DNA of 64,000 nt from Xanthomonas sp. DAR 35659 (lineage in GTDB: Bacteria; Pseudomonadota; Gammaproteobacteria; Xanthomonadales; Xanthomonadaceae), in NCBI RefSeq assembly GCF_041242975.1, contig NZ_CP162488.1, positions 2,160,001-2,224,000 of the forward strand, written 5' to 3'. Every line of letters starts with the position of its first letter. Within the stretch, counting starts at the first letter, position 1. The translations under genes and the position numbers were made by a program. Below, in pieces: positions 10,739 to 15,267 of the stretch. A model generated the notes under the pieces. It made no database searches, was not told the DNA's origin, and saw only the letters and a program-made list of their open reading frames with translations.

Positions 10739-11090
10739 TGGTGGAGGTGGGCGGAATCGAACCGCCGTCCGAAGGCACTCCATCCCCGGCACTACATGCT
10801 TAGCTCATCGTTGGATCTCGCCCCGGAACAGCACGATGTGCGAAGCGCATCCCGGGACCAGCCTGCTTTATTTAGCCAATGGCTGACAGGCAGCCACCAC
10901 CGGCGATTCCGTGATAATGACCCTACGTCGCGAGCACGGACACAAGCGATTTCGGGGCTAGGCCTTAAGCGGCCAGAGCGTAGTTGTCGTCGTTGGCAAC
11001 TATAAGTTTGCGGCTGGATTTACGAGGAAAGCTGCCCCCTCGGCATGCGCCAAGCGATTTTGCAACCCCCGTCGAAACCAGTGCACCCCC
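10739..11090 (-). ncRNA. ssrA: transfer-messenger RNA (tmRNA, ssrA)
   Basis: The RNA that rescues stalled ribosomes and tags the nascent chain for proteolysis. The 5' end GGGGGTG (reading down from 11090) pairs over seven bases with CACCTCC next to the discriminator and CCA at 10739, giving the tRNA-like acceptor stem. The T-arm contains GATTCCGCC. The internal tag frame (10965-10997, minus strand) encodes ANDDNYALAA followed by TAA, the expected hydrophobic-Ala-Ala ending. The length is about 352 nt, normal for a one-piece tmRNA. Its partner smpB lies 3.7 kb away on the same strand. The CCA is encoded. Confidence 0.97.
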
Positions 11091-11148: not shown

Positions 11149-11237
11149 GTCTTGCGACTGGGGCGGCTTAAGCTGGCTTCACTCGGCGGCCGGCACCGGG
11201 CACGTTCCGAGGGCTCTCCCCCACATGGAGCATCGCG

Positions 11238-14081
11238 ATGGCGACCAGGCAACAGCGCACGCCCGGCGGCGGGCGCGACCGCAAGCGTGCGACCGCGGCA
11301 ACCGCGTCCACCGAACAAGCGGCATCATCGAATACGACCAACGCTGCCGACCCCGCGCCGCCGGCGAAGCGGGGCGACGCGGCCAGGAAGGCGGCGCCGC
11401 CGAACAAGAGCGCTGTCAGGCCGACCCGCGCGCAGTCCACCAAACAAACGGCCGCCAGTGCGGACAAGCGCGGCCGGGAGCGTGTGGCGACGTCGGCCAG
11501 TACCAAGCCTGCGGCGCCCAAGTCGCGAGTGGCGAAGACCGCCAGCGCGGTAGGTGCGGCCAAATACACGCGGCCTGCTTCCGCGGACGCCGCTGTCACC
11601 AAGGCCGGATCCGCCGCGCCGTTGCGGCGCAATCCCAATCCGACCGCCGCGACCAGGCGCGCAGCGCCTGCGTCCGTGGACGCCGACGCCGCGATGGCCG
11701 CCGCCGGGCCGCTCGTCCCGGCGGCGCGCATGCCCCGTCCCAAGGCCACTGGCGAAGGCTCGCTGGCGCAGGGCAGGGCGCGCACGGTCGTCTACATCCA
11801 CGGCATCGGCAACAAGCCGCCGGCCGAGGTGTTGCGCTGCCAGTGGGACCGTGCCCTGTTCGGCCGCGCGATGGGCGAGCGCACACGCATGGCCTACTGG
11901 GTCAACCGCGAACGCTATCCGTCGCCGGAGCCGGGCGACTGCCAGGATCAGGACCGCGGGCCGGTGCTGAACCAGGCCGAGCAGCGCGTGCTGAGCGCGC
12001 TGGGCGTGGTTCCGCAACTGGCCGATCTACGCCAGCTCGCCGACACGCTGGCCGGTAGCGACGCCGAGCGCGCGCGGCTGCACCAACTGCTGGACGAAGT
12101 GGAGACTGCGGCGCCGGCACCAGCCGCGGCGACCGCCGATGTACATGCGCAGGGTGTGATCGACGTGCTCAACCGCGCGCTGCTCAAGCTGATCTCCGCG
12201 GCGCTGCTGCAGGACGTGCACGACTTGTTCTTCGTGCCGGCGCGGCGCACGCAGATGCGCGAGAGCCTGCTGCAGCGCATCCGCGCCGGCGGTGGCCCGT
12301 TCGTGGTGATCGCGCACAGCCAGGGCTCGCTGATCGCCTACGACGTGCTGCGCGAGCTGCAGCCGCAGGAGTGCGAGGTGTCGCTGCTGCTCACGCTCGG
12401 CTCGCCGCTGGGGTTGCCGGTGGTGCGCAGCATGTTCAAGGCGTGGACCGGCACGCCGAAGCTGCCGTTTCCGCCCTGCGTGGCGCGCTGGGTCAACGTC
12501 GCCGAGCGGCGCGACCCGGTGGCCCTGGACGACGATCTCGGCGACGACATCGCCGATGCCGCTGGCCGCTTCCACAACATCGCCGGGTCGAAGATCAACC
12601 CGGATTGGCAGCACAACCCGCATTCCGCCGCCGGCTACCTGTCCATCCCCGACGTGCGCGCCGAGGTGCGGCGCGCGGTGGGGGTGGGCTTCGATCAGCC
12701 GATCGCGCATCCGGTACTGATCAAGGACCTGTCCGACCAGTTGGAGGCGCGCGCGCCAGACTATCGGCATGAAGTACTCATCGAGCTGGAGCGGTTGTCC
12801 GAGGCCGGCGATCCGGCGCAGCGCAAGCATGAGCTGATCGCCGCGTTGCGCACGCTCACCGAGGCCTCCACGGGCCTGCACGGCGAGGCGCTGGATGCGC
12901 AGATCGAACTGGAGGACACCCTGCAGCGCTACGTCTCGGCGCGGTTGACCCGGTTCGAGATCGAGAGCCTGCGCGAGCGCTATCGCGACCTCAACCTGAA
13001 GCGTTTGTGGCGTGATGCCGGCAAGCGCGCGCTGATCTACCAGTCGCGCAGCACTATCCAGGTGGACGCGGCGCAGGTGGCCTATCGCGCGTTAGGCGCC
13101 GGCATCGGCTGGGCGGTGCTGGACAGCGGCATCGCCGCGGCGCATCCGCACTTCCACGCCGCCGGGCAGCCGCCGACGGTGCTGGCCCAATGGGACTGCA
13201 CCCAGCGTGGACGTCCGCGCGCGTTGCGCCCGGGCGAGGCCGGCTTCGACACCCTCGACGGCAATGGCCACGGCACCCACGTGGCCGGCATCATCGCCGG
13301 GCAATGCGCCGCGCCGTTGCCCGGCGCGTTGGCTGCAGCGCCGCTGCAGTTCGCCGCTATGGCGCCGCTGGCGCGGCTGTACGGGCTGAAGGTGCTGGAC
13401 GACGACGGCAACGGCCGCGACTCCTGGATCATCAAGGGCGTGCAGCAGGTGGCCGAACTCAACGAGCGTGCCGGCGAACTGGTGGTGCACGGGGTCAACC
13501 TGAGCCTGGGTGGCTACTTCGATGCCGAGAGCTACGGTTGCGGCTTCACCCCGCTGTGCAACGAACTGCGCCGGCTCTGGCGGCAGGGCGTGGTGGTGGT
13601 GATCGCGGCCGGCAACGACGGCCTGGCCTGGCTGATGCAGGGCGATGGCGAGGCCTACCCGCTGAACCTGGACCTGAGCATCGGCGACCCCGCAAACTTG
13701 GAGGAATCGCTGGCGGTAGGCTCGGTGCACAAGAGCAGCCCGCACAGCTATGGCATTTCGTATTTCTCCTCGCGCGGCCCAACCGCCGATGGCCGCTACA
13801 AGCCCGATCTGGTCGCGCCGGGCGAAAAGATCCTGTCGGCGCACCATGCCTTCGCGCTCGACGAGCCAGGCACCTGGATGGTGGAGATGAGCGGCACCAG
13901 CATGGCCGCGGCGCACGTCTCCGGGCTGCTCGCCGCGTTCCTGTCGGCGCGCCGCGAATTCATCGGCGCCCCGGACCGGGTCAAGCAACTGGTGCTGGCG
14001 CAGTGCCTGGACCTGCAGCGCGATCGCTACATGCAGGGCAGCGGACTGCCGAGTCTGATGCGGATGCTTGGTGGGACGTGA
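11238..14081 (+). CDS. dual-enzyme protein: alpha/beta hydrolase fused to S8 subtilisin-like protease
   Basis: 947 residues in three parts. Residues 1-175 are a low-complexity, Ala/Thr/Lys/Arg/Pro-rich basic tail without a signal peptide. Residues about 180-480 are an alpha/beta hydrolase: oxyanion-side motif VVYIHGIGNKP (184-194), nucleophile Ser361 in AHSQGS, and likely Asp426 (RRDPVALDDDL) and His462 (HNPHSAAGYL). A helical linker follows to about 615. Residues about 620-940 are a subtilase: Asp629 (WAVLDSGIA), His678 (GNGHGTHVAG), oxyanion Asn792 (AAGNDG) and Ser888 (SGTSMAAAHVSG). Both triads look intact. GGAG at 11227-11230 sits seven bases before the ATG. It is divergent from ssrA and stands alone. 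No export signal is seen, so it is either cytoplasmic or exported by a non-Sec route. Its function is unknown. Confidence 0.9.
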   Translation: MATRQQRTPGGGRDRKRATAATASTEQAASSNTTNAADPAPPAKRGDAARKAAPPNKSAVRPTRAQSTKQTAASADKRGRERVATSASTKPAAPKSRVAKTASAVGAAKYTRPASADAAVTKAGSAAPLRRNPNPTAATRRAAPASVDADAAMAAAGPLVPAARMPRPKATGEGSLAQGRARTVVYIHGIGNKPPAEVLRCQWDRALFGRAMGERTRMAYWVNRERYPSPEPGDCQDQDRGPVLNQAEQRVLSALGVVPQLADLRQLADTLAGSDAERARLHQLLDEVETAAPAPAAATADVHAQGVIDVLNRALLKLISAALLQDVHDLFFVPARRTQMRESLLQRIRAGGGPFVVIAHSQGSLIAYDVLRELQPQECEVSLLLTLGSPLGLPVVRSMFKAWTGTPKLPFPPCVARWVNVAERRDPVALDDDLGDDIADAAGRFHNIAGSKINPDWQHNPHSAAGYLSIPDVRAEVRRAVGVGFDQPIAHPVLIKDLSDQLEARAPDYRHEVLIELERLSEAGDPAQRKHELIAALRTLTEASTGLHGEALDAQIELEDTLQRYVSARLTRFEIESLRERYRDLNLKRLWRDAGKRALIYQSRSTIQVDAAQVAYRALGAGIGWAVLDSGIAAAHPHFHAAGQPPTVLAQWDCTQRGRPRALRPGEAGFDTLDGNGHGTHVAGIIAGQCAAPLPGALAAAPLQFAAMAPLARLYGLKVLDDDGNGRDSWIIKGVQQVAELNERAGELVVHGVNLSLGGYFDAESYGCGFTPLCNELRRLWRQGVVVVIAAGNDGLAWLMQGDGEAYPLNLDLSIGDPANLEESLAVGSVHKSSPHSYGISYFSSRGPTADGRYKPDLVAPGEKILSAHHAFALDEPGTWMVEMSGTSMAAAHVSGLLAAFLSARREFIGAPDRVKQLVLAQCLDLQRDRYMQGSGLPSLMRMLGGT

Positions 14082-14763
14082 GTGAGTGTGGGGCCGGGAT
14101 GATCAGCCATTCGGCTGCTGAAAAGCTGGGGATTCGGGATTGGGGATTCGCAACGGCGGTCCCGAGGGCGGTACGGCCTCCCCTGTAGGAGCGGCTTTAG
14201 CCGCGACGCGGTGAGGCCGGAATTGGGGATTCGGGAGTGGGGATTCGCAACGGCGGCTCCCTGGGCGGCACGGCCTTCCTCGTGGGGGCGGCTTAGCCGC
14301 GACGCCGTGAGTCGGGATTGGGAATTCGTGAGTAGGGATTGGCAAAGCGGTTCTCAGGCCGCATCGCCTTTGATATGGGAATCTGCTTTCCGCGTGGGGA
14401 TGAGTGCCAGTTTCGGGATGAGGGCATGAAGCGCGCTGGCGCGCCTTCTGAAACCGTCGCGTCCGAAGTACCGCGATTTCGTCGCGTCGCGGCTGAAGCC
14501 GCTCCCACCAGTGGATTCATGCCGCCGAGGCGCTCTTGCAGCCGCTGAATTTCGGCGTCACTGCGCTGCGCTCGCGGTTGAGCTTGTGCGCGTGAGAGCC
14601 GCTGTTGCGACTCTCCAACGCTGGCTTCCCAATCCCAACCCCGAGCTTAGCGTCTCAAGGCTTAAGCCGCTGCCAGAGAAAAGCCTGGACGGGCGGGAAC
14701 GTGGGGCCAAGCAGGGAGTCCGCGGTTGCGAATCCCAACTCCCGACTCCCCAATCCCCGCCCC
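14082..14763. repeat. repeat-filled gap between protease and smpB
   Basis: About 680 bases without a credible gene. It is built from two dispersed repeat families. The first is REP-like copies of the GTAGGAGCGGCTTTAGCCGCGAC type at 14183-14210, 14281-14309 and, inverted, 14486-14508. The second is stretches of the GGGATTCGGGATTGGGGATTC type near 14128-14152, 14219-14248 and 14311-14340, with the complementary form near 14730-14760. It separates the convergent protease and smpB genes. Confidence 0.75.
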
Positions 14764-15267
14764 TCAGGCATTCTTGTTATGCCGCCGCATGATCCGCTGC
14801 TTGTCGCGTGCCCAATCGCGGTCCTTGGCGGCGTCGCGCTTGTCGTGGTCCTGCTTGCCCTTGGCCAGCGCGATCTCGAGCTTGATCTTGTTCTTGCTCC
14901 AGTACATCGCGGTGGGCACCAGGGTGTAGCCGTCGCGCTCGACCCGGCCGATCAGCTTGTCGATCTCGTGCCGGTGCAGCAGCAGCTTGCGGGTGCGGCG
15001 GTCGTCGGCGACCACGTGGGTGGAGGCCTGGATCAGCGGGGTGAACTGCGCGCCGAACAGGAACAGTTCGCCCTGGCGCACGAACGCATAGCTCTCGCCG
15101 ATGTTGGCGCGGCCGGCGCGGATCGACTTGACCTCCCAGCCCTGCAGGGCCAGGCCCGCCTCGTAGCGGTCCTCCAGGTGGTATTCGTGGCGCGCGCGCT
15201 TGTTCAACGCGATGGTCTTGTTGGCCGTCGCGCCGTTTGCTTTATCCTTGGCGGGTTTCTTGCTCAT
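14764..15267 (-). CDS. smpB: SsrA-binding protein SmpB
   Basis: Partner of tmRNA in trans-translation. It binds the tRNA-like domain and mimics the codon-anticodon arm in the ribosome. It has 167 residues with a short Lys-rich N-terminal extension ([12 protein letters not shown]). The conserved core is [45 protein letters not shown] and the basic C-terminal tail [19 protein letters not shown]. The start at 15265-15267 gives the normal N-terminus; upstream in-frame sequence is unrelated. It is divergent from ratA with about 60 bases between. Confidence 0.97.

Follow-up and report, generated by a model that had tools for sequence, protein, structure and literature searches.

Pro-subtilisins with an inhibitor I9 (I9) propeptide, lipid-acting alpha/beta hydrolases, and gasdermin-protease pairs are the closest described systems to a gene of Xanthomonas sp. 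DAR 35659 that occupies positions 11,238 to 14,081 of a 64,000-nucleotide stretch of contig NZ_CP162488.1 (the window) and encodes an alpha/beta hydrolase-like half and a subtilisin-like half in one protein. In the IetAS system, also considered here, the subtilase IetS works with an ATPase partner. Bacterial gasdermins often adjoin proteases, according to a passage of a review (PMC9612521), and the fungal subtilase HET-Q2 is described in part of PMC10989679 as activating the gasdermin HET-Q1. The window protein is probably a cytoplasmic, self-inhibited enzyme pair held in one chain, in which a basic disordered tether, a lipase-like hydrolase, a propeptide, and a subtilisin follow one another. 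Computed support for this reading comes from a single reading frame, predicted folds, conserved catalytic sets, one fusion group, and purifying selection, together with a subtilase clade that is repeatedly paired with a second hydrolase.

The sequence-only reading of the window had proposed a hydrolase fused to a subtilase with both triads intact, and the observation as a whole holds: both catalytic sets lie in a single-frame protein of 947 residues. The frame opens with MA[ST]RQ and an equivalent ATG in all eight same-genus relatives compared, which favors the long start despite one database version (P0001) that begins at Met153, judging from its length. Where listed relatives are named at all, their database names are of the type ‘S8 family peptidase’, ‘subtilisin family serine protease’, and ‘hypothetical protein’. 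Peptidase_S8 is the sole Pfam family above its cut-off (residues 626–934, 8.3e-43, 147.2 bits versus a cut-off of 21.8), and the subtilase residues D629, H678, and S888 lie where they had been placed; the oxyanion Asn, earlier assigned to residue 792, is N793, residue 792 being Gly. Structure prediction recovered hydrolase and subtilisin folds with a propeptide-like domain between them; an early model from 21 sequences had a poor protease half and served only for the hydrolase fold search. The predicted propeptide (residues 511–592) is a strand-helix-helix-strand-helix-strand unit with block means of 77 to 96 in predicted local distance difference test score (pLDDT), and it superposes on the propeptides of pro-subtilisin E and pro-Tk-subtilisin. 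Propeptide and catalytic domain together superpose on pro-subtilisin E (3whi), pro-Tk-subtilisin (2e1p), and ProN-Tk-SP (3afg) over 343 to 371 residues, with an identical triad and oxyanion Asn. Unlike these enzymes, the window protein has no apparent signal peptide and places a basic tail and a second enzyme before its propeptide. In the model that shows this propeptide, the only stretch with pLDDT below 50, residues 600 to 602, falls within the predicted processing junction, which includes residues conserved among the fusions (K596 in 88/89, L599 in 80/89, and S603 in 81/89).

The hydrolase triad (S361, D426, H462) was likewise found complete at the positions first proposed and is conserved in every fusion aligned. 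In the predicted structure, the Ser-Asp-His order fits alpha/beta hydrolase topology, with strand 355–360 leading to S361 and with D426 and H462 in loops after strands 418–423 and 445–450, respectively. The nucleophile elbow reads AHSQG rather than GxSxG, and H188-G189 is presumably the oxyanion-hole motif. Pfam profile matches of this half fall under the cut-off (Thioesterase 0.022, PGAP1 0.12), and the assignment rests on conservation and structure. Structure search returned lysosomal phospholipase A2 (PLA2), LCAT, acyl-protein thioesterase 1 (APT1), and a Bacillus subtilis lipase. Fold and Ser-Asp-His order are thus shared with lipid-acting alpha/beta hydrolases (lysosomal PLA2/LCAT, APT1, PGAP1-like PF07819), and some lone homologues match PGAP1 under its cut-off or carry a PGAP1 flag; unlike those enzymes, the window hydrolase is fused to a protease.

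Conservation was read from an alignment of 89 fusions (the window protein included), 17 unfused subtilases, and 16 lone hydrolases; L061 was dropped for its frame breaks. Compared with eight same-genus relatives, the ratio of nonsynonymous to synonymous substitution rates (dN/dS) was 0.08–0.21 in the hydrolase, 0.02–0.17 in the propeptide, 0.08–0.22 in the protease, and 0.41–0.99 in the tail. These ranges leave out three more distant loci (L003, L013, L016), which gave 0.22–0.58 for the three domains and a tail that is saturated in two and at 1.12 in one. Because the catalytic residues are conserved throughout and dN/dS is low in both halves, both enzymes are, as judged from these alignments, intact and maintained under purifying selection.

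The 175-residue N-terminal tail is basic, as described before, with 32 Lys/Arg against 10 Asp/Glu. Its hydropathy also agrees with the earlier view that a signal peptide is missing: none of the 19-residue windows starting within residues 1 to 59 is hydrophobic (the best scores −0.38), and a signal peptide is therefore not apparent. Among 164 proteins examined, 151 have a tail of at least 20 residues, which is net positive in 150 and by at least five charges in 144. Since this charge is kept while tail dN/dS reaches 0.41–0.99, the tail preserves charge, not sequence.

Table 1. Features of the fusion gene and its flanking genes, in window coordinates
Feature	Position	Strand	Basis
Whole gene	11238..14081	+	947 aa, ATG to stop, single open frame
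Shine-Dalgarno-like GGAG	11227-11230	+	7 bases 5' of ATG
Basic low-complexity N-terminal tail, residues 1-175, predicted disordered	11238..11762	+	composition, pLDDT ~30
Lipase-like alpha/beta hydrolase domain, residues 176-495	11763..12722	+	predicted structure, structural matches, lone homologues
H188-G189, expected oxyanion-hole motif	11799..11804	+	88/89 fusions (1 gap), 16/16 lone hydrolases
S361, hydrolase nucleophile (AHSQG)	12318..12320	+	89/89 fusions, 16/16 lone hydrolases
D426, hydrolase acid	12513..12515	+	89/89 fusions, 16/16 lone hydrolases
H462, hydrolase base	12621..12623	+	89/89 fusions, 16/16 lone hydrolases
I9-like propeptide domain, residues ~508-599	12759..13034	+	predicted structure, superposition
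Predicted autoprocessing junction, residues 596-604	13023..13049	+	pLDDT dip, conservation
Subtilisin-like serine protease domain, residues 605-947	13050..14078	+	Peptidase_S8, structure model
D629, subtilase triad	13122..13124	+	89/89 fusions, 17/17 unfused subtilases
H678, subtilase triad	13269..13271	+	89/89 fusions, 17/17 unfused subtilases
N793, subtilase oxyanion Asn	13614..13616	+	89/89 fusions, 17/17 unfused subtilases
S888, subtilase nucleophile (GTSMA)	13899..13901	+	89/89 fusions, 17/17 unfused subtilases
ssrA (tmRNA), left neighbor	10739..11090	-	flanking gene
smpB, right neighbor	14764..15267	-	locus comparison

Self-processing, one of several roles suggested from the sequence, becomes the favored mechanism because an I9-like propeptide lies between hydrolase and protease; the cleavage itself is deduced from this arrangement. 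As in other pro-subtilisins, the propeptide would help the protease to fold and would plug its active site. The protease would then be expected to cleave itself off at the boundary between propeptide and protease (approximately residues 596–604). Such maturation would separate the protease from everything on its N-terminal side, so that the hydrolase would leave with the tail and propeptide, and both enzymes would be free once the propeptide was destroyed. The hydrolase would most likely act on a lipid or on an acyl ester or thioester, and the protease on nearby proteins; the tail probably anchors the chain to an anionic surface.

A restriction of the fusion to this genome is not supported, given relatives in many genomes and phyla. 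In a search with residues 176 to 947, 7994 database proteins were scored, 3519 of them at E ≤ 0.001 and some of these without the hydrolase; the 120 listed cover 91–100% of this two-domain region, which places the fusion beyond chance. In genome contigs, at least 560 of at least 588 pattern matches encode relatives. Of the 80 loci kept, 65 (L001–L064 and L076) match both halves, a few of them broken, and 15 match from the propeptide or protease onward only. Record titles assign the full-length carriers to Xanthomonas, Pseudoxanthomonas, Burkholderiales, Alphaproteobacteria, and Cyanobacteria and, among metagenome-assembled genomes (MAGs), to Acidobacteria, Planctomycetes, Verrucomicrobia, Gemmatimonadota, Chloroflexi (Ardenticatenales), and Hydrogenedentota. 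The family is large and widespread, and a literature search by title and abstract found no publication on the fusion. In a protease-domain tree of 45 of the 89 aligned fusions (44 random ones plus the window) and all 17 unfused subtilases, the fusions fall on one side of one branch (support 100/100, recovered in 100% of 200 bootstrap replicates). Among the unfused subtilases, L084 sits on a very long branch and its placement is unsure. This topology fits a single ancient fusion, as inferred from the sampled sequences. Each half does occur alone elsewhere, yet the fusions form one tree group, contrary to the idea of two separate genes joined by a sequencing error.

Phage cargo was considered and rejected, as none of the phage and plasmid records matched over 80% of the query at a single place. 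Just two viral contigs (L121 and L122) proved to carry the fusion; both end in the fusion gene with ssrA adjoining, and in L121, where this was examined, an integrase gene follows beyond ssrA. They accordingly look like host DNA at a prophage edge. In a viral structure library, subtilases dominated, alpha/beta hydrolase matches were far weaker, and no fusion appeared by name.

Unfused members of the subtilase clade also have partners. Six of the 15 unfused loci hold a gene with a GHSFG/GHSLG-type motif 5 to 42 bases downstream; they come from a Burkholderiaceae MAG, Adhaeribacter, two Gemmatimonadetes MAGs, a Chloroflexi MAG, and Novosphingobium (L069, L071, L072, L073, L078, L080), the L069 partner being called in two pieces. 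A subtilase followed by a downstream partner is likewise seen on plasmids of Rhizobium, Sinorhizobium, and Rhodococcus, annotated as ‘S8 family peptidase’ then ‘hypothetical protein’. The GHSFG-type partners form a separate family (eight aligned) and are taken for alpha/beta hydrolases on account of Pfam matches under the cut-off (L071, L083) and conserved motifs. If they are, the subtilase clade has been coupled to such enzymes more than once. The partners were rejected as a split-off form of the fused hydrolase: the best BLASTP E value for L081 was 0.96, and profile comparison aligned 14 columns around GHSxG at a probability of 15.5. The Novosphingobium locus also has a patatin gene just upstream, and on a Miltoncostaea plasmid an MBL gene is followed by one for a Tle1-like hydrolase (9.2e-61). 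The fifth plasmid locus examined, from Pseudoalteromonas, encodes an S8 protein of 1259 residues that includes a PA domain, and it lacks a GHSFG-type partner. Locus L074 runs out of contig. In Rhodopirellula (L075:9941-15537), an unfused subtilase lies upstream of a TPR-S, trypsin, NucA-type endonuclease protein, an arrangement resembling the peptidase-NucA systems described in part of PMC7159879.

Several observations weigh against an inhibited lipase-protease pair. The structural matches of the hydrolase are distant, at 9–19% identity, and RBBP9 and 5f2h, non-lipid or generic alpha/beta hydrolases, score equally well, so that a lipid substrate is weakly supported. Lone hydrolase homologues of approximately 300 residues exist, although three of the 16 (P0311, P0321, P0349) end in an apparent propeptide start and may be truncated fusions. 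Unlike in pro-subtilisins, no Pfam I9 family matched at E up to 1, and the propeptide rests on predicted structure. The downstream partners fall below Pfam cut-offs where tested (L071, L083), and that of L081 matches nothing. Seven of the 15 unfused loci, all acidobacterial (L065–L068, L070, L077, L079), pair the subtilase with a calcineurin-like phosphoesterase instead, as checked with Pfam in L065 and by BLAST cluster in the other six. Finally, absence or breakage in some strains, detailed below, indicates that the gene is dispensable. As side observations, the acidobacterial pairs have a GMC oxidoreductase-like gene nearby, and five of them (L065, L066, L067, L070, L077) also hold a gene whose tested copy, in L067, matches a RoxA-like cytochrome.

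The fusion gene lies between ssrA and smpB in 23/23 loci from Xanthomonas, Pseudoxanthomonas, and one Lysobacteraceae MAG (L001–L020, L037, L059, L063) and in 10/10 loci from the window's own genome and nine same-genus genomes (L094–L103), two of which overlap with L001 and L002. L017 and L020 have extra DNA ahead of smpB, and in L059 (X. hortorum jj2001) an insert of approximately 6 kb interrupts the gene itself. The sequence-only reading had treated the gene as an insertion into an otherwise conserved block. This stands insofar as smpB and ssrA lie side by side on the same strand, 130 to 260 bp apart, in three genomes that lack the gene (G016, G117, G253); its presence in 23/23 loci nonetheless marks it as a long resident. 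Eleven genomes without a near-full-length match were examined for this arrangement: besides those three, which fall in the genus group holding the Pseudoxanthomonas of L005 and L018, one (G226) has smpB and ssrA adjacent in a different orientation, and seven have no ssrA within 1.5 kb of smpB. From these comparisons, either the gene joined the block ahead of the divergence of Xanthomonas and Pseudoxanthomonas, or some lines have lost it. Near-full-length matches (at least 700 of 772 residues) occur in 45/297 family genomes, one with an in-frame stop, and in 15/18 of the window's genus, where the remaining three comprise one remnant and two without a match. The gene is in several BLAST pieces in L063 (X. 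phaseoli ATCC 49119), and frame breaks, a stop, or a remnant are found among L019, L020, G265, G175, and G214. Between gene and smpB, window positions 14127-14763 hold direct and inverted repeats of the GGGGATTCGGGATTGGGGATTCGCAACGG type. The tmRNA tag varies by group, being ANDDNYALAA in the window, ANDDNYGSDFAIAA in several other Xanthomonas, and ANDDNYGSDFALAA in two Pseudoxanthomonas.

A role as a cytoplasmic defense protein had also been raised. Outside Xanthomonadaceae, no close neighbor is common to different groups of fusion loci; five cyanobacterial loci share one stretch of surroundings, and genes resembling response regulators and ABC ATPases turn up repeatedly but at varying distances. 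Nearest neighbors were taken from 41 fusion loci outside the Xanthomonas-Pseudoxanthomonas set, giving 122 of 134 proteins after leaving out 10 from four cyanobacterial loci judged to be near-duplicates (L042, L044, L053, L054) and those at a contig start (L023) and a contig end (L038). Response_reg was found in three of the 122; response-regulator-like genes lie near the subtilase or fusion, inside the flanks retrieved, in 10 loci outside Xanthomonas (e.g., L074:8370-8747, L031:12658-13401), perhaps by chance since the family is common. At 1e-10, 33 PADLOC models matched among the 122 neighbors, and the 25 listed match one member each; a defense-island setting is not supported. IetA- and IetS-like proteins are among the neighbors, each model in one member and probably as one pair. 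The window protein itself matches PADLOC PDLC03014 ‘subtilase’ at 2.6e-67 over residues 368–940, a model matched also by 5/5 unfused subtilases scanned; such a match denotes similarity and not tested function. NCBIfam NF042956 ‘S8 family anti-phage peptidase’ is absent from the matches of the window protein. Its S8 domain resembles PADLOC IetS (2.2e-8), and membership in IetAS was rejected as the best match covers only 294–531 of 749, the S8 part, and the neighbors are ssrA and smpB rather than an IetA ATPase.

One relative departs from the common architecture. In P0187 (1085 residues), a bacterial gasdermin (NF051890, 9.9e-59, residues 11–213) replaces the tail before hydrolase, propeptide, and protease, which is reminiscent of gasdermin-protease pairs with both members on the same chain. 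It is the only gasdermin-flagged protein among the 234 relatives listed. Unlike those pairs, the window protein has a basic tail in this place, and no gasdermin matched in its own genome or in 50 carrier genomes (41 with a fusion, nine with an unfused subtilase), a weak negative given that no control genome matched either. Across 398 genomes of the phylum, a single gasdermin match was obtained, under the threshold, and the gasdermin piece matched nothing among plasmids.

Of the other explanations, the one that survives best, and is still unlikely, is a housekeeping turnover enzyme that strips a cytoplasmic carrier protein of acyl or ester groups before degrading it, with no killing. APT1 among the structural matches, strong purifying selection, the near-full-length gene in most genomes of the genus, and the surroundings shared by the cyanobacterial loci agree with such an enzyme; its patchiness in the family, the absent, remnant, or broken copies, and the lack of a pathway neighbor do not. 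Somewhat more doubtful is a membrane-attack device in which, under stress or infection, a hydrolase that damages membranes is released by proteolysis, in the manner of gasdermin-protease pairs. The gasdermin at the N terminus of P0187, the patatin and Tle1-like genes adjoining unfused members (L080, L084), the PADLOC match, and the HET-Q2 precedent point this way, against which stand the single flag among the listed relatives, the gasdermin searches of carrier genomes (read with their unmatched controls), the lack of a common defense neighbor, and the stable chromosomal place in Xanthomonas. A secreted or injected effector against host or rival cells is very unlikely: many carriers are Xanthomonas, and the hydrolases of P0195 and P0314 are weakly similar, under the cut-off, to the type VI secretion effector Tle3, but hydropathy gives no sign of a signal peptide, the window neighbors are ssrA and smpB, and the fusion occurs also in cyanobacteria and in Chloroflexi, Acidobacteria, Planctomycetes, and other MAGs. 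A sequencing or assembly artefact, an orphan, or an accidental read-through of two genes can be dismissed, given the coverage of all 120 listed relatives and the recurrence of the fusion, as one tree group, in many unrelated genomes.

The self-inhibited enzyme pair, which we continue to prefer, places two serine hydrolases with intact triads on either side of an apparent protease inhibitor, in one apparently cytoplasmic chain found across many phyla. It yields the testable idea that maturation of one enzyme releases the other. By analogy with gasdermin-protease pairs, a membrane-attack role is possible for the family, and the repeated pairing of the clade with a hydrolase, together with the gasdermin-bearing relative, makes a link to regulated membrane damage worth testing. 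That the family is a widespread class of one-chain, protease-released membrane-attack proteins, in which a subtilisin restrained by its own propeptide is activated and frees a lipase-like hydrolase on its N-terminal side (and a gasdermin in one relative), is unlikely at present. If true, the protein would lie silent in the cytoplasm until proteolysis made it attack lipids, a bacterial counterpart of gasdermin pyroptosis in which an enzyme replaces the pore.

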